Source: Xylanimonas allomyrinae
GTDB lineage: Bacteria > Actinomycetota > Actinomycetes > Actinomycetales > Cellulomonadaceae
Assembly: GCF_004135345.1 (NCBI RefSeq)
Contig: NZ_CP035495.1
Span: 2,480,001-2,544,000 of the forward strand
Direction of reading: 5' to 3'
DNA: 64,000 nt
Shown here: positions 9,948 through 55,292 of the stretch, piece after piece
Numbering within the stretch: position 1 is the stretch's first letter
Layout: the number at the start of each line of letters is the position of its first letter
The notes under the pieces: generated by a model
Database searches by the model: none
What the model saw: the letters and a program-made list of their open reading frames with translations, nothing else
Told to the model about the DNA's origin: nothing
Translations under genes and position numbers: made by a program

Positions 9948-10031
9948 CCAGGTCACGAGTCCCAGCGCCAAGTCCCGGCTCGCTGGGCAGCAACCCCAAG
10001 CCACGACGGGGTGCTCCGGGAGATGACCTGG
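9948..10031 (+). promoter_or_regulatory. SAM riboswitch (SAM-I/IV clan) 1
   Basis: The core pairs as expected for the SAM-I/SAM-IV clan. P1 is CCAGGTCA (9948-9955) with TGACCTGG (10024-10031). P2 is CCCAGCG (9961-9967) with CGCTGGG (9981-9987). P3 is CCCC (9994-9997) with GGGG (10008-10011). The pseudoknot pairs TCCCGG (9973-9978) in the P2 loop with CCGGGA (10016-10021). The conserved GCAAC of J2/3 is at 9990-9994. It sits 60 bases upstream of a flavin reductase/monooxygenase operon, so low SAM should turn that operon on. The RBS-proximal CGCCC-GGGCG hairpin may be the expression platform. Confidence 0.88.
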
Positions 10032-10091
10032 CCGCCGGCCGCCCACGGGCGAGTCGCCGCGCGGCAAGCGTGCGACCACGAGGAGCCCACG

Positions 10092-18483: not shown

Positions 18484-19614
18484 CTACCGGGACGCGCTCC
18501 CGGCGGTCGCGGGCACCAGGGCGGTGAAGCCCTTCGCCCGCCGCTCGTCCGCCGTCGTCCACAGGTCCGTCGTCACCTCGGCCTGGACCACGGGGATCAC
18601 CTCCTGCGCGAACCTGCGCAGCACGTCCTCCTGCTGCGCGGGCGGCAGGAGGTGGTTGACGGACACCGACTGGAGCACGTGGCCGAAGCTCCGGTGGTAG
18701 TCGAGGATCTTCTCCGCGACCCGCTCCGGGGACCCGACCAGGGCGGGGCCGCGCTCGACGGCCTCCTCGATCGTCTCGAAGCTCAGCGCCTTGCCGACGT
18801 GCGTCGCCGGGTCGTACCCGCGCCGGCGCATCGACGCGACCTGCGCCTCGTACAGCGGCCGGTACTCCTCGACCGCCTGCTCGGTGGTGTCCGCGAGGAA
18901 CAGCCCGCCCGACCCGGAACCCACGAACCCGTATCGCGCGTCGTGCCCGTGGGCGGCGTACTGCTCGCGGTAATGCTCGAGCAGCACCTGGTAGTTCTCA
19001 CGCGGCTGCAACGCGTTGGCGGTGATGACGGGGTCGCCGTGCTTGGCGGCCAGCTCGACCGCGAACCGCGACGTCGCCGAGCCGTGCCAGATGCGGAACG
19101 GCCCGGCGAACGGTCGCGGCAGCGTGGTCGCGTGCTCCAGGCGGTGCCGGTGGCGGCCCTCCCAGGTCACGTCCTCCTGCGAGAGCAGCAGGCGCAGCAG
19201 CTCGTAGTTCTCCTCCAGGTACTCGTACTGCTTGGTGATGTCGAGGCCGAGCAGCGGGTACTGGAGGTCCTCGTTGCCCTTGCCGATCGTGATCTCCAGG
19301 CGGCCGCGCGAGAGCTGGTCGACCGTGGCGAGGTCCTCAGCGACGCGGATCGGGTCGAGCAGCGAGAGCACCGTGACGCCCGTGCTCAGCAGGATCCGGT
19401 GGGTCGCCTGGGCGACCGCACCGAGGATCACCGTCGGCGCCGACGACAGCACGTCGCCCGCGTGCCGCTCCCCCACCGCGAACGAGTCGAACCCGAGCTC
19501 CTCGGCGAGCACCGCGTGCTGGACCACGCGCTCCAGGCGGTCCGACGGCGGCACGGCCTCGCCCGTGACCGGGTGCGGCGGGTTGAACACGATGTCCAGG
19601 AGCTGGAAGCGCAT
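18484..19614 (-). CDS. LLM class FMN-dependent monooxygenase (CE1758-like)
   Basis: A 376-residue LLM enzyme with strong family sequence: LAEELGFDSFAVGERHAGDV near the start, ILLSTGVTVLSLLDPIRVAE, and LATVDQLSRGRLEITIGKGN (about residues 75-120). It resembles the corynebacterial CE1758 group, whose substrate is unknown. The ATG at 19614 shares a base with the stop of a 29-codon mini-ORF, and the gamma-CA gene follows after 10 bases, so it is embedded in the sulfur-type operon. The likely electron donors are the flavin reductases encoded at 10.1-11.2 kb. Confidence 0.9.
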   Translation of the reverse strand: MRFQLLDIVFNPPHPVTGEAVPPSDRLERVVQHAVLAEELGFDSFAVGERHAGDVLSSAPTVILGAVAQATHRILLSTGVTVLSLLDPIRVAEDLATVDQLSRGRLEITIGKGNEDLQYPLLGLDITKQYEYLEENYELLRLLLSQEDVTWEGRHRHRLEHATTLPRPFAGPFRIWHGSATSRFAVELAAKHGDPVITANALQPRENYQVLLEHYREQYAAHGHDARYGFVGSGSGGLFLADTTEQAVEEYRPLYEAQVASMRRRGYDPATHVGKALSFETIEEAVERGPALVGSPERVAEKILDYHRSFGHVLQSVSVNHLLPPAQQEDVLRRFAQEVIPVVQAEVTTDLWTTADERRAKGFTALVPATAGSASR

Positions 19615-19703
19615 CAGGCGTCCCTCCCCTCGTGCACGGCCGCTCCCGCGGCGTCGCGTCTGCCAGTCCTCGTGGTGGCGGTCGTCAGGAAGTCGACGGG
19701 CAC
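19614..19703 (-). CDS. 29-residue mini-ORF upstream of the LLM gene
   Basis: Begins GTG at 19703 after an AAGGAGAAC site, starts VPVDFLTTATTRTGRR and ends HEGRDA with a TGA that overlaps the next ATG (TGATG). The good ribosome site and the coupling suggest it is translated. I do not recognise it; it may only serve to couple translation of the LLM gene. No cysteines, so it is not a Cys-sensing leader. Confidence 0.4.
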   Translation of the reverse strand: MPVDFLTTATTRTGRRDAAGAAVHEGRDA

Positions 19704-19759
19704 GGCTCTCTGTTCTCCTTCGGGTGCGGTTCAGGGGGTAGGCCGGGTGCTGCTTGCGG

Positions 19760-20098
19760 TCAGGCGCCGTCGGCGGCGAGCAGGCCGGCGTCCTTCCAGG
19801 CGCCGAATCCGCCGTCGACGTGCGAGACGTCGGTGTACCCGCGGGCCGCGAGCGCCTCGGCGACGGGTCCGGAGCCGTTGATCGACCCGCACACGACGAC
19901 GACGGGCGTGTCGTGCGCGACCGCGGGCGCGGCGGCCGGGCCGAACAGTGCGTCGAGGTCGTCGCGGTCGGCGATCGTCGCGCCGGGGATCTCGCCGGTC
20001 GACGCGCGCAGGGCGGCCGAGCGGACGTCGATCAGCAGGGCGCCGTCGGCGACCTTGGCGCCGGCGTCGGCGGCGGTCTGGAGCTCGGGGCTGGTCAC
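19760..20098 (-). CDS. rhodanese-like protein
   Basis: A 112-residue single rhodanese domain: GALLIDVRSAALRASTGEIP, then VVVVCGSINGSGPVAEALAA and the terminal GGFGAWKDAGL. Rhodaneses carry a persulfide on an active-site Cys, here Cys70. The active-site loop CGSINGSG departs from the usual C-x-x-G-x-R-S: the Gly and Arg are replaced by Ile and Gly, so activity may differ. The GTG at 20098 is preceded by AGGAGG. It lies between two LLM genes and could accept or move sulfur released by them. Confidence 0.85.
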   Translation of the reverse strand: MTSPELQTAADAGAKVADGALLIDVRSAALRASTGEIPGATIADRDDLDALFGPAAAPAVAHDTPVVVVCGSINGSGPVAEALAARGYTDVSHVDGGFGAWKDAGLLAADGA

Positions 20099-20128
20099 GT
20101 GGTCCTCCTGGGGTTGTGGGAGTGGGTT

Positions 20129-21361
20129 CTAACCGGCGAACGCGGCCGCTTGTTCCGTGCGCGGGGCGCGGTCGGCGCCCGCGCCGGCCCATGCCTGGGC
20201 CAGCAGCGCGTACGAACGGCGGGCGTCGGCGGGGTCGTGGGTCGCGGTGGTGACGAGCAGCTCGTCGGCGCCGGTGACGCGCTGGAGCGTCGCCAGGCGC
20301 TCGACGGCGGTGGCCGGGTCGCCGACGATGCGCGTGTCGACGCGGTCGGCGACGACGGCGCGCTCCGGTTCGGTGCGCTCGGTCCACGGCGTCGCGTCCT
20401 GGGGGCGCGGGTAGGCGATCGCGCCGTCGGCTCCGCGACGGATCGAGGCGACCCAGTCGGCGAAGGGGGCGGCGAGGTCGTGCGCGCGCTGGGTGGTCTC
20501 GGCGACCAGGACGTCGGCGGACACGACGACGTACGGCTCGGCGAGCACGCCGGGACGGAACGCGGCACGGTAGGCCGCCACCGTGTCGAGCGTGGTGTGG
20601 GGGCTGACGTGGAAGTTCGCGGCGATCGGCAGGCCGAGCCGGCCCGCGACGCGCGCGGACTCCCCGCCTGAGGACGCGAGCACGAACAGGTCGAAAGCCG
20701 CGTCCTGGACGGGCGGCGACACGTAGTGGTGGCCGGCGTCGTCGGTGAACGTCCCGGCCCGCAGCCCCAGCACGAGCTCGAGCTCGGCCTGGAAGCTCGC
20801 GGGGGCGCGCGACGCCCCGACGACGGCGGCCTGCGCGAGGAATCGCTCACGCAGCGCGGAGTCGTTGAGCGTCGGGGGTGCGGCGGGCACGTAGAGGCCG
20901 TCGACGACGCGCGGCCCGGCCTCGCGGGGTGCCGGGCGGTCGGCGGGCCTGGGGGCGTCGGCCTGCGGGGCCTCCCCTGCCTTGTGCCGTGCCGCGCGGT
21001 CGCCGGTCGGCGGGGTGAACGCCCGGCCCAGGCCGAGGTCGACGCGCCCGGGGTGGAGCGCCGCGATCGTGCCGAACTGCTCGGCGGCGACGAGCGGGCT
21101 CGTGGTGCTCAGCAGCACCGCCCCGGATCCGACGCGGATGCGTTCGGTGCGTGCGGCCGCGGCCGCGGCGAGCACGGCCGGTGACGCCGACGCGACGCCG
21201 GGCGACAGGTGGTGCTCGGCGTACCAGACCCGGCGGTAGCCGAGGCGGTCGAGGTCGACGGCGAGCGAGACGGCGTCGCGCACGGCCTGTGCGCCCGTGC
21301 CGCCGTCGGGCACGAGGGCGAGGTCGAGGACGGAGAGCGGGACCCGGGTCGGGACGGTCAT
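20129..21361 (-). CDS. LLM class FMN-dependent monooxygenase (MsnO8-like)
   Basis: A 410-residue LLM enzyme starting VPLSVLDLALVPDGGTGAQA and carrying RRVWYAEHHLSPGVASASPA and VGSGAVLLSTTSPLVAAEQF, the pattern of the MsnO8 group. An Ala/Pro/Arg-rich insert lies around residues 120-150. The ATG at 21361 has GGAGCTCACC upstream. It follows the family-3 binding protein gene by 96 bases in the same operon. Substrate unknown; the context suggests an oxidised or reduced organosulfur compound imported by the adjacent ABC systems. Confidence 0.9.
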   Translation of the reverse strand: MTVPTRVPLSVLDLALVPDGGTGAQAVRDAVSLAVDLDRLGYRRVWYAEHHLSPGVASASPAVLAAAAAARTERIRVGSGAVLLSTTSPLVAAEQFGTIAALHPGRVDLGLGRAFTPPTGDRAARHKAGEAPQADAPRPADRPAPREAGPRVVDGLYVPAAPPTLNDSALRERFLAQAAVVGASRAPASFQAELELVLGLRAGTFTDDAGHHYVSPPVQDAAFDLFVLASSGGESARVAGRLGLPIAANFHVSPHTTLDTVAAYRAAFRPGVLAEPYVVVSADVLVAETTQRAHDLAAPFADWVASIRRGADGAIAYPRPQDATPWTERTEPERAVVADRVDTRIVGDPATAVERLATLQRVTGADELLVTTATHDPADARRSYALLAQAWAGAGADRAPRTEQAAAFAG

Positions 21362-21457
21362 GGTGAGCTCCGAGGGTGACGGTGGGCCGGCCGGTGGCGG
21401 CGCCGCGGGGCGACGCCACCGGACGGGGTGGCGGGTGCGGGGCGGGACGCGGGCGCG

Positions 21458-22462
21458 TCAGCTCGTCTTGGGCAGGCCGGGCGGGTTGGTCTCGGGCTGC
21501 TCGATGGCCTCGGCCTCCAGGCCCCACCGCTGGAGCACCTTGGCGTAGGAGCCGTCGTCGAACGCGCCCTGGAGCGCGGCCGTGACGGCCGGCGCGAGGT
21601 CGTTGCCCTTGAGGGTCGCGACGGCGATCTGCGCCTTGTCGGGCCACCCACCGTTGAGCGTTCCGACGACGGCGAAGTCCTGCGGGGAGACCTTGGCCTT
21701 GTACGACGCCGACGCGTTGGGGCCGAACGACGCGTCGATGCGGCCCGACTGCAGGGCGAGGGTCGTGTCGCTGTCGTTGTCGAAGTACTCGACCTTGACG
21801 GGGGCCAGTCCCGCCTTCGTGTTCTCCTCGTCCCAGGCGAGCAGGATCTTCTCCTGGTTGGTGCCCGAGCCGACGGCGACCGTGAGCCCGGCGATGTCCT
21901 GAGGCTCGGTGATCGTCGTGTCCGCGAGCTTGCCGCCCGCCTTCACGAGCCAGCCCAGCTCGTCGTTGCGGTAGGAGGAGAAGTCGTACAGCTCCTTGCG
22001 CTCCTCGGTCACGGTGACGTTGGTGATGACGGCGTCGACGTCGCCGGACTGCACGGCCAGCGGCCAGTCGGCCCACGCCTTGACGTCGAGCTCGAGCTTC
22101 TTGCCGAGGGCGTCGGCGACGAGCTGGGCGATGTCCGTCTCGTTCCCGATCGGGGTCTTCTCGTCGTCGGCGAGGAACACCAGGGGTGGGGCGCCCGTGG
22201 CGCTCACGGCGACCTTGAGGGTGTCCGTGTCGGCGAAGGCCGGCGGGAGGAGCGCGATCGCCTCCGGGTTCGCAGGGGTGTGGATCCGGTCCTGATGCGG
22301 GGAGGTGCTCACCTCGAGCCCGGCGGCCTGTGCGGCGTGCTGCAGGTCGTCGGACTCCGCGGCGCCGGACGTGCCGCCGCAGGCGGCAAGGAGTGCGACG
22401 ACGGGTCCTGCTGCGAGCGCGGCGAGCGCGGCGCGGGGGCGCCGGCGGGCGATGGAAGTCAT
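21458..22462 (-). CDS. ABC transporter substrate-binding lipoprotein, family 3
   Basis: A 334-residue periplasmic-binding-type lipoprotein: signal sequence with lipobox LLAACGG (Cys near residue 28), then a family-3 fold (TLKVAVSATGAPPLVF, DIAQLVADALGKKLEL, GDVDAVITNVTVTEERKELY, DIAGLTVAVGSGTNQEKIL). Family 3 usually binds amino acids such as cystine; with LLM enzymes around it a sulfur amino acid or related compound is plausible but inferred. It ends the family-3 importer set (permease, ATPase, binding protein). The apparent open frame that joins it to the ATPase upstream results from the ATPase frameshift. Confidence 0.9.
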   Translation of the reverse strand: MTSIARRRPRAALAALAAGPVVALLAACGGTSGAAESDDLQHAAQAAGLEVSTSPHQDRIHTPANPEAIALLPPAFADTDTLKVAVSATGAPPLVFLADDEKTPIGNETDIAQLVADALGKKLELDVKAWADWPLAVQSGDVDAVITNVTVTEERKELYDFSSYRNDELGWLVKAGGKLADTTITEPQDIAGLTVAVGSGTNQEKILLAWDEENTKAGLAPVKVEYFDNDSDTTLALQSGRIDASFGPNASASYKAKVSPQDFAVVGTLNGGWPDKAQIAVATLKGNDLAPAVTAALQGAFDDGSYAKVLQRWGLEAEAIEQPETNPPGLPKTS

Positions 22463-22529
22463 GGGTGCCTCTCGTGGTAGGCGGGTGGTCGGTGGCTGGG
22501 AGCTGTGGCTGGGGGGTCTAGGGCAGGGG

Positions 22530-23352
22530 CTACAGGACCTTGGCGAGGAACGCCCTGGTCCGCTCGTGGCGGGGGTTGCCGAGCACCTGCTCGGGCGGTC
22601 CTTGCTCGACGACGCGGCCGGCGTCCATGAACACGACGGTGTCGGCGACCTCGCGCGCGAAGCCGATCTCGTGCGTGACGACGACGAGCGTGGTGCCGCC
22701 GTGCGCGAGGTCGCGGATGACGTCGAGCACCTCGCCGACGAGCTCGGGATCGAGCGCCGACGTCGGCTCGTCGAACAGCAGCACCGAGGGCCGCATCGCG
22801 AGGGCGCGGGCGATCGCCACACGCTGCTGCTGCCCCCGGAGAGCTGCCGGGGGCGCGCGTCGGCCTTGTCCGCCAGCCCGACGCGGGCGAGCAGCTCGCG
22901 CGCCTCGGGCTCGACCTCGGCGCGGCGCCGGCCCTGCGCCGAGACGGGCGCCTCGACGACGTTCTCGAGCGCGGTCAGGTGCGGGAAGAGGTTGAACGAC
23001 TGGAACACGAACCCGATCCGGGTGCGCTGCCGCAGCACCTCGCGCTCCTTGAGCTCGCGCAGCACCTCCCCGCGCCGCGTGGCACGGCGCGCGTAGCCGA
23101 CCAGGTCGCCGTCGAGCTCGACGAACCCGGCGTCGACCTTCTCCAGGTGGTTGACCAGGCGCAGCAGCGTCGACTTGCCCGACCCGGACGGTCCGAGGAT
23201 CACGGTCACCTCACCCGGGCGGACCTCCAGGTCCACGGCGTGCAGCACCTCGAGGGTGCCGTATGACTTGCGCACGCCGTGCAGTCGCAGGTGGCCGCCC
23301 GCGGGGTCGCAGTTGTGTTCACAGTCGTGCTCGCCGTCGTGTTCGCGCTCAT
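22530..23352 (-). pseudogene. polar amino-acid-type ABC transporter ATPase, frameshifted
   Basis: Energises the family-3 importer. The Walker A GPSGSGKS and Q-loop [13 protein letters not shown] are in one frame up to LSGG. The signature then breaks, because one base is missing in the C5 run 22833-22837. In the other frame the protein resumes as [30 protein letters not shown] (Walker B) and VVVTHEIGF, ending at 22530. A second shift is likely near 23303-23306: the ATG at 23352 that overlaps the permease stop is out of frame with the ATPase, and no ATG or GTG exists in the ATPase frame before 23275, which would cut the first strand. Both breaks are one-base losses in G/C runs, so sequencing error is the simplest reading. 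Confidence 0.8.
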
Positions 23353-24377
23353 CGTTGTGCTCCGTCGAGGGCCGGGGTCGTGGCCGCGGTGCGGGTCAGG
23401 TGCCCGCGTGCACGCAGGGCGCGCACGAGCCGCTGCCGGGGAGTGGGTGGCACGGTGCGCAGCGCGCCGCGGGCGTAGTGCCGTTCGAGGTAGTACTGCG
23501 CGACGGTCAGCACCGTGGTGATGACCAGGTACCAGATGCCCGCGACCAGCAGCAGCGGGACGACGCGCTGGTTGCGGCCGTAGATGATGCCCACCGTGTA
23601 GAACAGCTCGCCGTAGGCCAGGACGTAGACGACCGAGGTGCCCTTGACGAGGCCGATCATCTCGTTGACCGACGTCGGCACGATGGTGCGCATGGCCTGT
23701 GGCAGCACGATGGCCCACTGCTGGCGCCAGCGCGGGATGCCGAGCGACGCGGCGGCCTCCTGCTGGCCCTGGTCGACGCCGAGGATGCCCGCGCGCACGA
23801 TCTCTGCGCTGTAGGCGGCCTGCGACAGCCCCAGGCCCAGCACCGCGGCGCCGAACTTGTCGACGATGTCGAGCGTGTCGAACGAGGCGAAGCCGGGCCC
23901 GAACGGGATGCCGACGCTCAGCTCGGGGTACAGGTAGGCCAGGTTGTACCAGAGCAGAAGCTGCAGGATCAGCGGCACCGAGCGGAACACCCACATGTAG
24001 GCCCAGGCGACGGACTGGAGCAGCGGCGAACGCGACAAGCGCATGAGCGCGAGCACCGTGCCGAGCCCGAACCCGATGACGATCGAGGCCGCGGCGAGCC
24101 GGATCGTGCCCCACAGCCCGTCGAGGACCGACGGCCAGGTCAGGTACTGCGCGACGACGTCCCACTCCCAGTGGTCGTTCGTCACGAGCGAGCTGACCAC
24201 CATGGCGAGCAGGACGGCCACGACACCGGTCGCCGCCCATCGTGCGGGGTGCCGCGCGGGCACCACGCGCAGGCCCGCGTACGACGGCGCGGCCGACGGG
24301 CTCGCGTCGGCACCTGCCGAATGATCGGCCGACGGCGGAGCGACCACCCGCGCCGTGGGCAGGGCCGTGGCGCTCAT
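23349..24377 (-). CDS. polar amino-acid-type ABC transporter permease
   Basis: A 342-residue His/Glu/Gln/Arg/opine-family permease. After a ~60-residue cytoplasmic N-terminal extension come the first membrane helix, LWGTIRLAAASIVIGFGLGT and the coupling loop EAAASLGIPRWRQQWAIVLP with the EAA motif. Four to five membrane helices are seen. It overlaps the DUF1684 stop by ATGA at one end and the ATPase start ATG at the other, so the importer genes are translationally coupled. Length is longer than typical (~220-280) because of both termini. Confidence 0.92.
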   Translation of the reverse strand: MSATALPTARVVAPPSADHSAGADASPSAAPSYAGLRVVPARHPARWAATGVVAVLLAMVVSSLVTNDHWEWDVVAQYLTWPSVLDGLWGTIRLAAASIVIGFGLGTVLALMRLSRSPLLQSVAWAYMWVFRSVPLILQLLLWYNLAYLYPELSVGIPFGPGFASFDTLDIVDKFGAAVLGLGLSQAAYSAEIVRAGILGVDQGQQEAAASLGIPRWRQQWAIVLPQAMRTIVPTSVNEMIGLVKGTSVVYVLAYGELFYTVGIIYGRNQRVVPLLLVAGIWYLVITTVLTVAQYYLERHYARGALRTVPPTPRQRLVRALRARGHLTRTAATTPALDGAQR

Positions 24378-25352
24378 CGGGGCGCCTTCTCCCCCGCCGG
24401 CACCGCGAACGGCACGTGGTTGCCCGGCGCCGGGGCGGGGCACGTGCCGTGCTCGGTGAACGCGAACGGCAGGTTGCGGGCCTCGTTGAAGTCGACGCGC
24501 ACCGTGCCCGACCCACCGGGGGCGAGCGTGCCCGGCAGGTCGACGGCGAGGATGCGCCACGGCGCCACGCCAGGGGTCTCGTCGGAGAACAGGATCGAGG
24601 CCCGGTCACCCGTGCCGGTCAGCAGCAAGGTCACGGCGTGGCCGGCGTGCGCGAGGTCGACCTCGCCGATCACCTGGACGTGATGGAGCAGGCCGGGGCG
24701 GGCCGCCCCCACGACGATCTCGCGCGGCTCCGCGTACTGGCGCACGCGCCCGTCGAGCACCCACGCCGGGTCGAACGGGAACGTCGGCACGCCCGCGAAG
24801 TCCGCGCGCGCCGGGGCGTGCGGGTCGCGCAACCGGATCGCGTAGCGGCCCGTGCGCTGCACGACCTCCACGGCCACCACCGCGGTCTCGCCCCCGCCCC
24901 CTCGGGCAGCGGGGCCCGGCCTGCGGGCAGGTACGACCCGAGCACCACCGACCCGCCCTCGGGCACGACGACGTCACCGGACCCGCGGGCGAGACGCTCG
25001 CCCACGAGGCCACCAGCCCCAGGCGCGGCGGCACCGGGCCCCGACGCGAGGCGGTCGCCGGCGAGCGCGGAGGGGACGTCCTCCCGCGCTTGGGCGGCAT
25101 GCCCGACGAACACGGCGTCGGCGGCGCGACCAGCGGCGGCGTCGGCGGCGCGACCGGCGGCGGGACCCGCGCCGTCGGCGGGCCGCACGTGCGCCCCGGC
25201 GGCGTCGGCCCACCACAGGCCGGGCACGCCGGGCAGCGCGGCGGGCTCGGCGGGCAGCCAGTGGAACGCGACGACCGACAGCCAGCCGTGCGGCGCGGCC
25301 AGGGCGCGCTCACGCTCCGCCTGCCGCGCGGGCCTGTCCAGGATCTGCGTGC

Positions 25353-25356
<4 letters not shown>
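24374..25356 (-). pseudogene. DUF1684-domain protein, frameshifted
   Basis: DUF1684 proteins are of unknown function. The first frame (ATG 25356) reads MSTQILDRPARQAERERALA then GWLSVVAFHWLPAEP, the conserved opening, to about 24905. After one missing base in the C5 runs at 24891-24901 it continues as TAVVAVEVVQRTGRYAIRL, RDPHAPARADFAG, PTFPFDPAWVL and the end of the family, ARNLPFAFTEHGTCPAPAPG. An Ala/Gly-rich insert lies near residues 60-95. Both ends overlap neighbours by ATGA, between the two ABC systems. The well-kept second half argues against real decay. Its constant place in a sulfur-type operon is the best clue to function. Confidence 0.78.
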
Positions 25357-27493
<2,137 letters not shown>

Positions 27494-27497
<4 letters not shown>

Positions 27498-28396
27498 CGC
27501 ACGGGCCTCCGGTCGTGGGAGAAGGCGCGCCCGAGGCGTCCCACGGCGACCACGAGGGCCGCGATGACGACGCCGGGCAGGGTCGAGTACCACCAGGCGG
27601 TGGCGAGGTAGTTGCGCCCCTCGGCGACGAGCGAGCCCCACTCGGGTGCGGGCGGCGCGGCACCGAAGCCGAGAAAGCTGAGCGCGGAGACGGCCAGCAC
27701 GACGGCCCCGAGCTCGACGGCGGCGAGCACGAGCACCGGCCCGGCCGCGCCCGGCAGCACGTGCCGCAGCACGACGGCGGTCTCGCGCACCCCGGCCAGT
27801 CGTGCCGCCTCGACGTACGTCGCACCGCGCACGCGCAGCACCTCGACGCGCATGACGCGCGCGAACGTCGCGACGGTGGCCACGCCGACGGCGACGGCGA
27901 CCTTGACGGTGCCGAAACCGAGCGCGGTCACGACGGCCAGCGACAGCAGCAGGCCGGGGATCGCGAGCAGCACGTCCGACGCCCGCATGACGACGGTGTC
28001 GACCCACCCGCCCACGAACCCGGCCACCAGGCCGAGCGCACCGCCGACGAGCAGCGCGATCGCGATCGCGATGAGCGCCGCCTGCAACGACAGGCCGGTG
28101 CCGTGCACGGTCCGGGAGAACAGGTCGCGGCCGAGGTGGTCGGTGCCGAACCAGTGGGCGGCGCTCGGGCCCTGGAGCTTGTCGGCCGGGACTCCCGTGA
28201 CGGGGTCCTGGTGGGCGAACACCCCGGGCAGCACGGCCCACGCGAGGATCACCAGCACGACGGCGAGGGCGAGGAGCGCGCCGGGCCGCAGCAGCGGGTG
28301 GCGCACCGCCCGCACGCGCTGCGCCGTCGGGTCGGCGAGGGCCGCGGCCGCGCCGGGTCGGTGGCCGGGGATGCGTGAGGCGGACAGCAGGCTCAT
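27494..28396 (-). CDS. family-5 ABC importer permease (DppC-type)
   Basis: A 300-residue permease of the DppC type: N-terminal helix, then HWFGTDHLGRDLFSRTVHGT, the conserved periplasmic motif, and a coupling loop VEAARLAGVRETAVVLRHVL, with about six membrane helices. Pairs with the DppB-type permease encoded just upstream. The ATG at 28396 overlaps that gene's stop, and its own stop overlaps the ATPase start. Substrates of this importer family are oligopeptides, nickel, glutathione or opines; the sulfur-type context favours a sulfur-containing solute. Confidence 0.94.
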
Positions 28397-29391
28397 GCGG
28401 CCCTCCCGAGGGCGGTCGTGCGCCGGGCGGCCGGCGCACGGCGGGGGCGGAGCACACCGGTGAGGTCGATGCGCGGGTCGAGCAGCGGGTAGGCCAGGTC
28501 GACGGCGAGGTTGACGACGACGAACACGGCCGCCGCGACGACGACGAGGCCCTGGACCACGGGGATGTCCTGCGTCGTGACCGCCTGCTCGACGAGGCGG
28601 CCGAACCCTTGGCGGGAGAACACCGTCTCGGCGACGACGGACCCGGCCAGGAGCTGGCCGACCAGCACGCCCAGCACGGTCAGGACGGGCAGCACCGCGT
28701 TGCGCAGCACGTGCCGCCCGAGCACCCGGCCGCGTGAGGCGCCTTTGGCGAACGCCGTCTCGACGTAGGGCGAGCGCCAGGCGGCGCCCAGCCCTTGCGA
28801 GAGCACCTGCGCGACGGTCGCGGCGCCGGGGATGGCGAGCGTCACGGCCGGCAGCACGAGCGACGCGAAACCGTCGTTGCCCACGGCGGGGAACCAGTAC
28901 CAGCGGAAGGAGAAGAGCTGGAGCAGCAGCAGCCCCACCCAGAAGCCGGGCACGGCCACGCCGAGCGGCGGCAGGGCGAGCAGCAGCCCGCGCAGGCGGC
29001 TCGACCGTGTCCACGAGGCGAGCACCGCGGTGCCGCCGCCTACGGCGACGGCCAGGACGAGCGCGAACGCCGCGAGCGCCGCCGTCTGCGGGAAGGCCTG
29101 CGCGATCAAGGTCCGCACGGGCGCCCCCGAGGTGAGCGACGTGCCGAGGTCGCCGGTCACGGTGTGGCCGAGCTGGCTCAGGTACTGCTCGACGGGGCCG
29201 CGGTCGAACCCGTACTGGGCCCGCAGGGCTGCGGCCTGGGCGGGGTCCACCGTCTGACCGGCCGACGCGTTGTCGAGCATCACGCTCACGGGGTCGCTCG
29301 GGAGCAGGTACAGGACCACGAAGGACACCGTGACGGCGGCCCACAGGACGGCGACGGCCGCGACGACCCGGCCCAGGACGTAGCGCGTCAT
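28393..29391 (-). CDS. family-5 ABC importer permease (DppB-type)
   Basis: A 332-residue DppB-type permease with the characteristic N-terminus TRYVLGRVVAAVAVLWAAVT, a long first periplasmic loop containing QYGFDRGPVEQYLSQLGHTV and GDLGTSLTSG, and the coupling loop VETAFAKGASRGRVLGRHVL. It starts one base after the stop of the binding-protein gene and overlaps the next permease. Six membrane helices are expected. The tail is Arg/Ala-rich and cytoplasmic. Confidence 0.94.
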   Translation of the reverse strand: MTRYVLGRVVAAVAVLWAAVTVSFVVLYLLPSDPVSVMLDNASAGQTVDPAQAAALRAQYGFDRGPVEQYLSQLGHTVTGDLGTSLTSGAPVRTLIAQAFPQTAALAAFALVLAVAVGGGTAVLASWTRSSRLRGLLLALPPLGVAVPGFWVGLLLLQLFSFRWYWFPAVGNDGFASLVLPAVTLAIPGAATVAQVLSQGLGAAWRSPYVETAFAKGASRGRVLGRHVLRNAVLPVLTVLGVLVGQLLAGSVVAETVFSRQGFGRLVEQAVTTQDIPVVQGLVVVAAAVFVVVNLAVDLAYPLLDPRIDLTGVLRPRRAPAARRTTALGRAA

Positions 29392-29392
29392 G

Positions 29393-31039
29393 TCAGCCCT
29401 GCTCCACCCACGCGTCGTGGAACAGCAGGCGGCTGGAGGCGTCGAACGTGACGCCGTGGACCTTCGCGCCCACGCCGATGGACTGCGCGAGCTCGAAGAG
29501 CGGGATGGCGTAGCCCTGGTCGACGATCTGGCGCTGTGCCTGCGCGATGGTGTCGGCGCGCTGCGCGGCGTCGGACTGCGTGAGCTCGGCCGCCAGCAGC
29601 GGGTCGAGCGCGGGGTCGGCGGGGCGGCGGTTGCGGTTGCCTTCGGCGGCGGGGAACTGCGTGCGCAGGATGTCGCCGTCGGCGCGGGTGACGTTGTAGT
29701 AGTAGGTGTCGTAGTCGCCGCTCTTGTCGAGCGCCGACTGCTCGGCGGGGGTGACCTGGCGCAGCGTGAGGTCGACGCCGACGGCGCGCAGCTGCTGCTG
29801 GGCGAGCTCCAGGACGGCCTGCGAGCCGGTGAACAGCGGGGCGTAGACGACGTCGAACGTGGCCTTCTGGCCGTCCTTCTCGCGGATGCCGTCGGCCCCG
29901 GGCTTCCATCCGGCGGCGTCGAGGGCGGCCTTCGCGGCGTCGGGGTCGAACGCCAGGTCCTGCGACAGGTCGGTGTACCCGGGTGTGGTCGAGGCGAGGA
30001 CGCTCGTGGCGGGCTTGAACGCGTCGGACAGCACGGTGTCGACGAGCTCGGGGCGGTTGATCGCCTGGCTGACGGCGCGGCGCACGGCGACGTCGGCGAG
30101 GAACCCGCGGGTCACGTTGGGCTGGAGCACGAACGTCACGCCCGGGTTGGTGCGGGTGAGCACGGAGCCGCCGGCGGCGGAGATCTGCTGGACGTCCTGC
30201 GGCAGCACGTCGCCGACGGCGTCGAACTGGCCCGAGGCGAGGCCTCCGGCGCGCACGCCCGACTCGGGGACGATGCTGAAGTCGATCTCGTCGACGTAGG
30301 CGGGGCCCTCGTGGTCGGAGACGGCCGAGGCCCAGCCGTAGTCGGCGCGCCGGGTCAGCACGGCCCCCTGGTCCTGCGTGTAGGACTTGAGGACGAACGG
30401 GCCCGAGCCGACGATCGTGCCTTGCAGGCGCGCAGCCGCGTCGGCGCCGACCGACGCGTCGGACAGGATCGCGAGCGACACCGTCGAGGTGGCCTGGAGG
30501 AACTGGGCGTTGGGCGCGTCGAACGTGACCGTCACGGTGTGGTCGTCGACGACGGTCGCACCCTGGTACCCGGCCAGGTAGGAGGCGGCCAGCGGCGCGG
30601 AGGCGCCGAACGGGCCGGTCAGCGCGTCGAGGTTGGCCTTGACGGTGGTGGCGGTCAGCGGCGTGCCGTCGGAGAACGTGACGTCGTCGCGCAGGTGGAA
30701 GGTGAACGTCGTCAGGTCGTCGCTGACGTCCCACGACGTGGCGAGCCACGGGACGATCTCGCCGGTCTTCGGGTCCTGGTCGGTCAGCGAGTCCGCGAGC
30801 TGGCGGGCGATGTAGATGCTCACGTTGGTGCCGACCTGCTGCGGGTCGACGCCCGACGGCGAGGCGCCGAGCGCGAAGCGCAGCGTGCCGCCCGGTGTGG
30901 GGTCTCCGGTGGGCGCGGCCCCGGCGGGGCCGCCCTGGGTGGCGGCACCGCCAGGTCCGGCGCACGCGGCGAGCGCGAGCGCGGGGGCGAGCAGGGCGAC
31001 GGCGGCGACGTGGCGCCACCGGGGCGTGGTGCGTGGCAT
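29393..31039 (-). CDS. family-5 ABC substrate-binding lipoprotein
   Basis: A 548-residue binding protein of the peptide/nickel family. Signal sequence with lipobox ALAACAG, then the family-5 opening TLRFALGASPSGVDPQQVGT, the hallmark IVPWLATSWDVSDDLTTFTF, and RDDVTFSDGTPLTATTVKAN. An AGGAGAC site precedes the ATG at 31039. It heads the importer genes and follows the first LLM gene of the operon after a 155-base gap that contains a 14-bp repeat. It probably captures the compound that the LLM enzymes then oxidise; this is inference from context. Confidence 0.94.
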   Translation of the reverse strand: MPRTTPRWRHVAAVALLAPALALAACAGPGGAATQGGPAGAAPTGDPTPGGTLRFALGASPSGVDPQQVGTNVSIYIARQLADSLTDQDPKTGEIVPWLATSWDVSDDLTTFTFHLRDDVTFSDGTPLTATTVKANLDALTGPFGASAPLAASYLAGYQGATVVDDHTVTVTFDAPNAQFLQATSTVSLAILSDASVGADAAARLQGTIVGSGPFVLKSYTQDQGAVLTRRADYGWASAVSDHEGPAYVDEIDFSIVPESGVRAGGLASGQFDAVGDVLPQDVQQISAAGGSVLTRTNPGVTFVLQPNVTRGFLADVAVRRAVSQAINRPELVDTVLSDAFKPATSVLASTTPGYTDLSQDLAFDPDAAKAALDAAGWKPGADGIREKDGQKATFDVVYAPLFTGSQAVLELAQQQLRAVGVDLTLRQVTPAEQSALDKSGDYDTYYYNVTRADGDILRTQFPAAEGNRNRRPADPALDPLLAAELTQSDAAQRADTIAQAQRQIVDQGYAIPLFELAQSIGVGAKVHGVTFDASSRLLFHDAWVEQG

Positions 31040-31194: not shown

Positions 31195-32300
31195 TCAGGC
31201 GGGTTGCAGGGCCCGCACGGGAGCGGCCGGGCCGTGCAGGCCCAGGCGTTCCCGGAACGAGCCGGTGGTCTTCTCGACGGGGAACAGCCCGCGCGCCTGC
31301 AGGTCGGGCACGAGGCCGGTCACGATGGCGTCGAGGTCGGCCTCGAGCGCGGCGGGCCGCAGCACGAACCCGTCGACGGTCCCGGCGGTGACCCACTCGG
31401 CGACGACGTCGGCCAGGTGCCGCGGCGTCCCGGCGACGACGAAGGCGCCGCCCCCGGCGCTGGCGCCCTCGATGTCCTCGATCATCGCGAGCCGGGCCAG
31501 GGCGCTCTCGCGCTGGGCGGCGAGCACCACGTAGGCCTCGGCGAGCACGCGCAGCTCGTCGGGGTCGCGCCCCTCGGCGGCGGCGGCCTCGCGCACCGCG
31601 GACCGCAGCGCGAGGACGCCCGCCTGGTCGGGGGCGACGATCCGGACGACGTCGGCGACGAGCGCCGCGGCCCGTGCCCCCGTCTCGTCCGTGACGCGCA
31701 CGACGACGGGCGGGCGGCCGTGCGGCGCGGCGATCGGCTCGGCCGGGCGGCTCACGGCGAAGCGGATGCCGTCGTGGTCGAGGCGCCGCCGGCCGTCAGG
31801 GTCGCGCGTTGCGGTCCGCGCGTCGGCGTGGTCCCACAGCCGCCCGATGCGGCGGGCCGCGACGACGGCGTGCCGGGCGAGGCGTTCGTCGCCTGCGGGC
31901 AGGCCGACCTGCCAGGCGGCGCGGCCGCCGCTCGCGCGGTCGATCCCGGCGACCGCGCCTGCGATCGCGGACGGGTCGAGGTGGAGGGGGTCGACGCCGG
32001 CGACCAGGCCGATGCCCGGCGCGTGCGGCGCGACGCGGGCGGCGGCCACGGCGGCGTCGAGCCGGCCGGCGACACGGCCGCGCCCCGGGTGCAGCAGGAA
32101 GGCGGCGTCGAGCACGACGAGGTCGACGTGGCCCTGCTCGGCGGTGCGTACGAGGCGCACGAACCGCTGGCCGTCGAACGGCAGCGCGGCGATCCCGCCG
32201 CGGGTGCGGTGCGCGCCGGGCCGCGCTCCGGCGGCGGTGAGGTCGACGCCGACGATCGCGCGGGGCCGTCGGAGGGGACGGGGGCAGGAGGAAAGAGCAC
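31195..32300 (-). pseudogene. LLM class monooxygenase, first gene of the sulfur-type operon, frameshifted at its start
   Basis: An NtaA-like LLM protein. From about 32260 down to 31195 one frame is open: AIVGVDLTAAGARPGAHRTR, RLVRTAEQGHVDLVVLDAAF, ASGGRAAWQVGLPAGDERLA, and an end FRERLGLHGPAAPV. No usable start exists in that frame. The GTG at 32300, with a GGAG site, opens VLFPPAPVPSDGP in the other frame and joins it if one base is restored to the G4 run 32262-32265 (C run on the coding strand). The corrected protein is about 368 residues. The substrate pocket cannot be read. It lies 158 bases after the Cys leader peptide and is the first target of riboswitch 2. Confidence 0.78.
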
Positions 32301-32458
32301 GGGGAGGCTCCGTTCATGAGCGTCGCCGCGCCACGCGTCAGCGCGGCGGCAGGGCGACCGGGATGCACAGGACCGCACGGGGGCGGCGATGGCCGTAGGC
32401 CGGTGTGGATCGAGGGGACGGGCTCAGGCCCGCGGACCGCGCGTAGCGGCGTCGCTGG

Positions 32459-32494
32459 TCAGCGACAGCAACAGCGACACTGGCTCCGGTACAT
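32459..32494 (-). CDS. Cys-rich leader peptide MYRSQCRCCCR
   Basis: An 11-residue ORF with a very strong ribosome site (AGAGGAGGAACG) before its ATG. Four of the last six residues are cysteine. It lies about 60 bases after the SAM riboswitch and 158 before the LLM gene on the same transcript. Poly-Cys upstream ORFs are known in mycobacteria as cysteine-responsive attenuators; the same role is inferred here. Confidence 0.7.
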   Translation of the reverse strand: MYRSQCRCCCR

Positions 32495-32552
32495 CGTTCC
32501 TCCTCTTCGCCCGCGAGGGCTCGCGTGTTGTCTCACCGCTGGCGCGGCCAAA

Positions 32553-32634
32553 CCTGGTCCTCACCCGGGGCACCCACCCGCGCGGGGGGTTGCCGTCCGA
32601 CCAGCCGGGGCTTGACGTCGGAGCTCATGACCCG
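32553..32634 (-). promoter_or_regulatory. SAM riboswitch (SAM-I/IV clan) 2
   Basis: On the minus strand the core reads GGTCATGAG, then P2 TCCGAC paired with GTCGGA, the conserved GGCAACCC, a P3 of CCC/GGG pairs, TGCCCCGGGTGA and GACC closing P1 (GGTC/GACC). The CCCGG of the P2 loop can pair with CCGGG after P3 to form the clan's pseudoknot. The P1 seen is shorter than in the other two copies. It leads the ~14-kb LLM/ABC operon. The intergenic span 32301-32837 holds this, its promoter, the Cys leader and the icd promoter; nothing else is seen. Confidence 0.85.
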
Positions 32635-32659
32635 AGGCCCGGGGGCCTCGACACGCAGG

Positions 32660-32688
32660 ACACTACGGAGCGCTCGTACGCAGGGCAA
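32660..32688 (-). promoter_or_regulatory. promoter of the sulfur-type operon
   Basis: On the minus strand TTGCCC (32688-32683) and TAGTGT (32665-32660) are separated by exactly 17 bases, and the riboswitch begins about 26 bases further. Good geometry for a sigma-A-type promoter. Confidence 0.5.
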
Positions 32689-32768
32689 CGGCCGTTTCAC
32701 ATTTCGAGACATCGTTTTGAGACGCACGAAGCGCGTCGCGCATTCCGGTGAGCACGGCCCGTCAAGTA

Positions 32769-35057
<2,289 letters not shown>

Positions 35058-55164: not shown

Positions 55165-55208
55165 GGGGAGCGTGTTCTCCCCGCGCTTGCCGCACCGAAC
55201 CGTGCGGC
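55165..55208 (-). promoter_or_regulatory. expression platform of riboswitch 3
   Basis: Two hairpins follow the aptamer: GCCGCAC/GTGCGGC (55189-55208) starts right after P1, and GGGGAG/CTCCCC (55165-55182) ends 10-15 bases before the GGAGGA ribosome site. Either could switch with the aptamer. Confidence 0.4.
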
Positions 55209-55292
55209 CAGGTCGTCACCCGGGGCACCCCGCCGCGAGGGGAGGGTTGCCGGCCAGCGAGCCGGGGCTTCGCGCTGGCGCTCATGACCTGG
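55208..55292 (-). promoter_or_regulatory. SAM riboswitch (SAM-I/IV clan) 3
   Basis: On the minus strand: P1 CCAGGTC with GACCTGG (55286-55292 with 55208-55214), P2 GCCAGCG with CGCTGGC (55273-55279 with 55253-55259), the conserved CCGGCAACCC of J2/3, P3 and GTGCCCCGGGTGA. The CCCCGG of the P2 loop can pair with the CCGGG after P3. Leads the cysteine-desulfurase-like gene. Confidence 0.9.

Follow-up and report, generated by a model that had tools for sequence, protein, structure and literature searches.

The window analysed here, a stretch of 64,000 nucleotides of Xylanimonas allomyrinae DNA, carries on its minus strand a SAM-IV riboswitch aptamer that is followed by a very short upstream open reading frame (uORF) with a Cys-rich end, a C-rich spacer and a gene cluster extending from about 32.3 kb to 18.5 kb (Table 1). 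A preliminary description of this locus had pointed to a SAM aptamer, an 11-codon ORF ending in CRCCCR with a strong ribosome site, and some 14 kb of genes behind them. The first two elements are confirmed, with the aptamer matching the SAM-IV covariance model over its full length and well above the gathering score, and the extent of the minus-strand cluster fits the third.

Table 1. Features of the leader and the downstream cluster, in window coordinates and in the order of transcription
Feature	Position	Strand	Basis
SAM-IV riboswitch aptamer (RF00634)	32518..32632	-	cmscan 89.8 bits, gathering score 38, model positions 1-116 complete
Short hairpin GCCC-TCGC-GGGC behind the aptamer and ahead of the ribosome site, probable expression platform	32509..32520	-	Best-hairpin script on family loci
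Shine-Dalgarno motif GAGGAGG of the uORF	32499..32505	-	Read from sequence
Cys-tailed uORF MYRSQCRCCCR, 11 codons (ATG 32494 to TGA 32459)	32459..32494	-	Sequence; short ORF with a Cys-rich end in the equivalent position in relatives
Hairpin GTCGCT-GACC-AGCGAC around the uORF stop codon	32451..32466	-	Stem scoring of family loci
Untranslated C-rich spacer ending at the probable start of the operon, possible Rho-loading region, ~160 nt	32301..32458	-	C 0.46, G 0.32 over 32315-32458; terminator scan
First cluster gene: luciferase-like flavin monooxygenase (TIGR03860-related)	31195..32300	-	PF00296 E 4.9e-17; TIGR03860 E 1.8e-35, below curated cut-off
ABC importer, SBP_bac_5/peptide-nickel type: binding protein, two permeases, fused double ATPase	25353..30988	-	Pfam, NCBIfam
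Further genes: permease, ABC ATPase and binding-protein ORFs, two more luciferase-like monooxygenases	18484..24560	-	Pfam for 23349-24560, 20129-21361 and 18484-19614; ORF list

The leader and its cluster

The uORF (ATGTACCGGAGCCAGTGTCGCTGTTGCTGTCGCTGA, encoding MYRSQCRCCCR; all peptides are written here up to their stop codon) has a run of Cys codons near its stop, as do its Cys-tailed counterparts in relatives. It begins 138 nt behind the aptamer start and is led by a Shine-Dalgarno (SD) motif whose 3' end lies 4 nt ahead of the ATG, and it is thus not a leaderless ORF. SAM-IV was the only Rfam aptamer found in 32150-32700 at E values up to 5, and the leader is not a tandem riboswitch in this sense. 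An intrinsic terminator was considered and rejected, given that the terminator scan of the window leader detected no terminator-like site on the minus (coding) strand in 32150-32850 and hence no attenuator composed of a terminator hairpin and U tract after the leader ORF. The whole leader of the window folds with no unusual stability (z -0.66), and RNAfold offers an alternative fold in which the 3' arm of the stop-codon hairpin pairs with an upstream TGTCGCTG copy instead. A promoter-like pair TTGCCC-17-TAGTGT, noticed by eye and unreported by the consensus scan, is located at 32660-32688 on the minus strand and ends about 27 nt before the aptamer.

The candidate operon probably serves sulfur scavenging, judging from its LLM/TIGR03860-type monooxygenase and its ABC importer. 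Pfam and NCBIfam matches of the first gene cover 31195-32160, and the upstream part was assigned by tblastn with the relative at locus L025. In the same comparison, the N-terminal part of this gene lies in another frame; at 32255-32300 the homologous frame offers no start codon, and a short way upstream it is closed by a stop. The frame break reflects a frameshift in the strain or else an error of the assembly. Farther downstream, one permease of the second ABC system comes from a Pfam match, and the ATPase and binding-protein ORFs of this system were read by eye from their translations.

Conservation of the aptamer-uORF pair

Two more SAM-IV aptamers in the window (55178-55289, minus strand; 9951-10076, plus strand) each lie directly before an ordinary gene without a uORF, and the fourth copy of the genome, outside the window, is also found directly before a gene. 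Across the genus, SAM-IV was detected at 23 places in 7 of 11 genomes, and six of these places share the aptamer subtype of the tandem leader as judged by sequence. A uORF is present at three of the six, i.e., in the window, at L014 (MRRSQTRCCCR, before a monooxygenase) and at L018 (MNRSLCRRSCR, before a binding-protein gene). The remaining three (L013, L015 and L016) and a seventh congener locus of the subtype (L062) have no uORF and carry the monooxygenase gene directly behind the aptamer; genome G003 harbors both versions, the direct one at L015 and the tandem one at L018. The preliminary description had stated that its reading would be refuted if close relatives had lost the Cys codons. 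Such a loss is mostly not observed, as the two other congeneric uORFs keep three Cys (L014) and two Cys (L018), compared to four in the window. Against the reading, four congener loci do without the uORF altogether. Lower-scoring SAM-IV matches (L003, L010, L017, L019, L021, L022 and L023; 48.7-79.6 bits) represent sequence types of their own and also lie before genes.

To look beyond the genus, we searched 221 family genomes at the DNA level, reading 30 of the loci, and scanned named genomes with a pattern that yielded 76 stretches. We counted as a Cys-tailed uORF any SD-led ORF of 4-50 codons that starts at most 140 nt from the aptamer core and has at least two Cys in its last eight residues. 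Such a uORF follows the aptamer at 40 of the 74 named-genome loci with this subtype (the 76 fetched stretches minus L061 and L097, where the locus ends too soon), compared to 0.08 expected from dinucleotide shuffles, with the caveat that loci and pairs are mutually related and that these counts are not counts of independent events. The order of aptamer and poly-Cys ORF, proposed from the outset as something to check in related genomes, is thus conserved across many genera, and the pair is real, broadly conserved and not a product of chance. It occurs in Promicromonospora, Cellulosimicrobium, Cellulomonas, Xylanimonas, Puerhibacterium, Oerskovia, Isoptericola and Krasilnikoviella. The peptides there are 11-50 residues long, and their tails read, for example, CCR, CRCR, CRCRR, CCHCSCR or WCRRR. 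Because peptide lengths differ, a narrow uORF pattern matched only 3 of the 221 family genomes, all of them from the genus of the window. At least two Cys are present at 29 of 40 loci from family-type genera and at least one at 35 of 40; the corresponding figures for other genera are 11 and 13 of 34. Some family uORFs have a single Cys within the last eight residues, two of four Luteimicrobium loci have none in the last eight residues of their short ORF, and no Cys uORF was found behind SAM-IV in Arthrobacter (0 of 6 loci), Intrasporangium (0 of 2) or Janibacter (0 of 2). Locus L091 (QAPD01000042.1), labelled Sphaerisporangium cinnabarinum, carries a Cellulosimicrobium-type uORF, and this label looks wrong.

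A class-wide search found SAM-IV in 276 of 393 genomes. Our class sample is non-random and comprises 106 rows (30 best matches and 76 hand-picked ones, with one place counted twice and four further fetches left out, namely one duplicate, two cut and one filler), of which 10 have a Cys-tailed uORF, compared to 0.42 expected, and 96 have none. Presence of the Cys uORF is tied to the type of gene behind it, with gene classes defined by our own sequence motifs: in the class sample it precedes metY in 10 of 53 rows, cysteine-desulfurase-like genes in 0 of 40, metX in 0 of 4 and unclassed genes in 0 of 9, and among the named loci it is found before 21 of 29 LLM monooxygenase genes, 11 of 17 metY, 8 of 12 unclassed genes, 0 of 10 metX and 0 of 6 desulfurase-like genes. 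An NCBIfam check on five representatives agrees with these classes, placing metY (L137 and L122) and metX (L116) above the curated cut-offs and the desulfurase-like (L145) and monooxygenase (L094) representatives below theirs. The same design stands before metY in Rhodococcus, Nakamurella and Mycobacteriaceae-like genomes. All seven Rhodococcus loci have the uORF MCRTCR (metY lies behind it in six, and the seventh locus ends too soon), and the uORFs MRASLHPLTRCCCR, MARSPMRCCCQ and MRPEMCHCC come from one Mycobacteriaceae-like family whose name we infer.

NCBIfam leader models matched neither the 30-aa ORF enclosing the uORF of the window nor six of eight relatives' uORFs tested, and the two matches are leaders of another type behind SAM-IV. 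These are leader peptides of the known RRHVDLLR type at L210 (NF042934 above cut-off) and L224 (NF042936, NF042934 below cut-off). Separately, an in-frame CGA-AUG (Arg-Met) pair is present in short uORFs behind SAM-IV at 20 of 181 loci, compared to 0.05 expected from mononucleotide shuffles, and five of these are uORFs of the window's family. Examples are VTCRMRR, MTCRMPF and VSKRMR, and loci of this kind include L135, L141, L149, L220, L222, L230, L202, L064, L081 and L111 as well as the Streptomyces-like L147, L152, L155, L160 and L161. The pair may serve to sense Met or as an internal start.

uORF position, codon choice and probable regulatory output

In three relatives with the direct arrangement, the gene starts 63, 63 and 67 nt after the aptamer core, and the uORF starts 50-75 nt after it at the 22 of 43 family tandem loci whose main gene could be identified; the uORF occupies the place of the regulated start. 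This equivalence of position makes it most likely that the riboswitch acts on the entry of ribosomes at the uORF, which in turn would read Cys-tRNA. The best hairpin between aptamer and ribosome site has at least four pairs at 44 of 46 family loci, as determined by a script that takes the best hairpin obtainable, without shuffle control or null model. Its stem differs between genera, with 25 distinct sequences among the 46 loci, and for the window the same script prefers an overlapping stem CGCGA/TCGCG.

Among 66 within-group pairs, 71 of 128 indels inside the uORFs keep the frame, compared to 72 of 513 outside. Mismatches are spread rather evenly over the codon positions of the uORFs (276/236/206). 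The third position shows no excess, and selection on the entire peptide sequence is thus not visible: kept are the frame, the Cys tail and the position behind the aptamer, but not the rest of the peptide. The Cys codons are mostly UGU, with a UGU:UGC ratio of 109:24 in 42 family uORFs (40:2 for the last Cys) and of 48:352 in the coding stretches of the family loci. All 49 uORFs (52 distinct ones minus three without Cys in the last eight residues) together have 123 UGU and 25 UGC, and 13 ORFs of the window have 0:28. Use of the rarer Cys codon where sensing would take place is consistent with a sensor that is decoded slowly. A selenocysteine reading of UGA was dropped; TGA is the stop in 42 of 43 family uORFs, but 12 of 16 others end in TAG. 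At L065, L079, L108, L112, L044, L045, L090 and L105, a Met codon directly precedes the Cys run (MCCR, MCCHCSCR), and uORFs of this kind might read both sulfur amino acids.

Two sulfur-linked sensors in series had been suggested for this leader from the window alone, and the recurrence of the aptamer and a Cys-ended ORF in many genera supports this idea. We consider it, on balance, probable that the operon is on only when both SAM and charged tRNA-Cys are low; translation of the uORF, the responses to SAM and cysteine, the Rho output and the logic of the gate are what we infer from sequence. Aptamer and short platform hairpin together would gate ribosome entry at the uORF rather than at the distant operon gene. 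At high SAM, the uORF would remain untranslated, and the bare C-rich leader would allow an early stop of transcription, probably by Rho. At low SAM, the uORF would be translated, and with enough Cys-tRNA the ribosome would reach the stop codon and leave, exposing the leader again. If Cys-tRNA were scarce as well, the ribosome would pause on the rarer UGU codons, which adjoin the stop. Paused so close to the stop, it would shield the beginning of the C-rich stretch, along with the stop-codon hairpin where present, and polymerase could pass.

For the output step, we favor Rho-dependent attenuation over refolding of the leader with moderate confidence, because the spacers are long and C-rich, no terminator-like site was detected in the window leader, the Cys codons lie beside the stop, and the stop-codon hairpin is not a general feature. 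Family spacers measure 126-397 nt with mean C and G contents of 0.50 and 0.31 (22 loci). The hairpin reaches a stem score of at least 5 in 20 of 40 distinct family loci, compared to a mean of 4.5 (maximum 10) with shuffled 3' flanks and 14.0 (maximum 21) with flanks swapped between loci, and thus lies within the swapped-flank range; it may matter in some lineages. Rho was also proposed for the Cys leader peptides of cys operons, in a prediction termed rather weak in the passage cited (Seliverstov 2005; PMC1262725).

The same two sensors could have a translational output instead, with the stalled ribosome refolding the leader to free the operon ribosome site without Rho. Passages on mycobacterial poly-Cys attenuation describe it as acting on translation (PMC9031893, PMC13236596), and the short Rhodococcus spacers (68-72 nt at the six loci measured) would suit such an output. 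Nevertheless, this seems rather unlikely: family spacers are long and variable, and an eight-sequence Promicromonospora consensus fold (one all-over fold without control) revealed no convincing pairing that would hide the operon ribosome site. It is also conceivable that the two inputs are independent and not serial, with cysteine alone acting at the uORF and the aptamer acting separately on transcription. SAM riboswitches of other classes are often transcriptional, and this background as well as the long spacer between aptamer and operon would agree with independent inputs, which we nonetheless regard as quite improbable: the uORF starts where direct relatives have their regulated start, a hairpin lies in between, and no terminator-like site was detected on the coding strand of the window leader.

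Stalling could further depend on the Cys residues and not on their codons if the nascent peptide bound a metal or thiol and arrested its own ribosome. The recurrent Cys-Arg tails (CCR, CRCR, CCHCSCR) are what one would look for in this case, but the strong UGU bias, the freedom of the remaining peptide to change and the lineage-specific form of the tails (MCRTCR, CHCC, CRCRR) make it very unlikely. That the uORF is merely a chance ORF beside a SAM riboswitch would agree with its absence from the four congener loci; we rejected this as having next to no probability in view of the dinucleotide shuffles (40 of 74 loci against 0.08) and the frame-keeping indels.

If true, the serial two-sensor leader would amount to a two-input RNA gate of natural origin, present across many actinobacterial genera, where the riboswitch controls the sensor of the second signal and not the gene. 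The length of some SAM-IV leaders would then be explained, and a single leader would connect SAM and cysteine as the two main sulfur pools. The system is directly testable because direct and tandem versions of one aptamer subtype share a genus and, in G003, even a genome. Conservation of the pair in many related bacteria suggests that the leader itself checks two sulfur signals ahead of operon activation. We see an even chance that actinobacterial SAM-IV serves more widely as a licence for an interchangeable second sensor, a tiny ORF whose rarer Cys codons would read tRNA charging (next to Met in some lineages, accompanied by a CGA-AUG pair or belonging to the RRHVDLLR leader type in others), forming a gate for low SAM and low Cys in several lineages and before different genes such as monooxygenase operons and metY.

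Comparison with known regulatory leaders

Cys uORFs and SAM-IV riboswitches are each known, and their serial combination is undescribed as far as searched: in line with the novelty suspected in the preliminary description, none of the literature matches listed describes, in its title or abstract opening, SAM-IV with a Cys leader peptide behind it. The parallel drawn there to the poly-Cys uORFs of mycobacteria holds for the codon run and not for the mode of initiation, since those uORFs are reportedly leaderless (thus the title of a 2020 study by Canestrari) and the window ORF is SD-led behind an aptamer. Like the window leader, Salmonella mgtA and E. coli tnaC combine a leader peptide and another signal with a Rho-dependent output, but their ligands and the causes of stalling are different. 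In Clostridium acetobutylicum, one sulfur operon is subject to control by a T-box that we take to be specific for Cys.

This operon resembles our locus in its joint control by SAM and a T-box, but its SAM sensor acts from an antisense transcript and a T-box takes the place of a leader peptide, according to the sections cited (PMC9943018). Mycobacterial poly-Cys uORF attenuators and the Cys leader peptides of cys operons share with the window a short ORF with a Cys run near its stop, before sulfur genes and with no obvious terminator; unlike the SD-led window ORF behind its SAM aptamer, they come with no mention of such an aptamer in the passages drawn on (PMC9031893, PMC13236596, PMC1262725). 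SAM-IV itself is described in Mycobacterium avium and Streptomyces lividans before genes for O-acetylhomoserine sulfhydrylase and cysteine desulfurase, and a uORF of this kind goes unmentioned in the parts cited (PMC3774663, PMC8079986). The B12 riboswitches of metE and ppe2 in Mycobacterium tuberculosis are similar in that a riboswitch acts together with a translated uORF, and ppe2 expression requires translation of its uORF; however, the ligand is another one, the uORF lies inside the aptamer (metE) or overlaps the gene (ppe2), and no amino-acid-sensing codon run is described in the sections considered (PMC11260477). The SAM-I riboswitch of Xanthomonas differs from the window in that its expression platform binds tRNA directly, with no leader peptide mentioned in the passages cited and Met in place of Cys, but here, too, one leader senses both SAM and an uncharged tRNA, in this case tRNA-fMet (PMC7270179).
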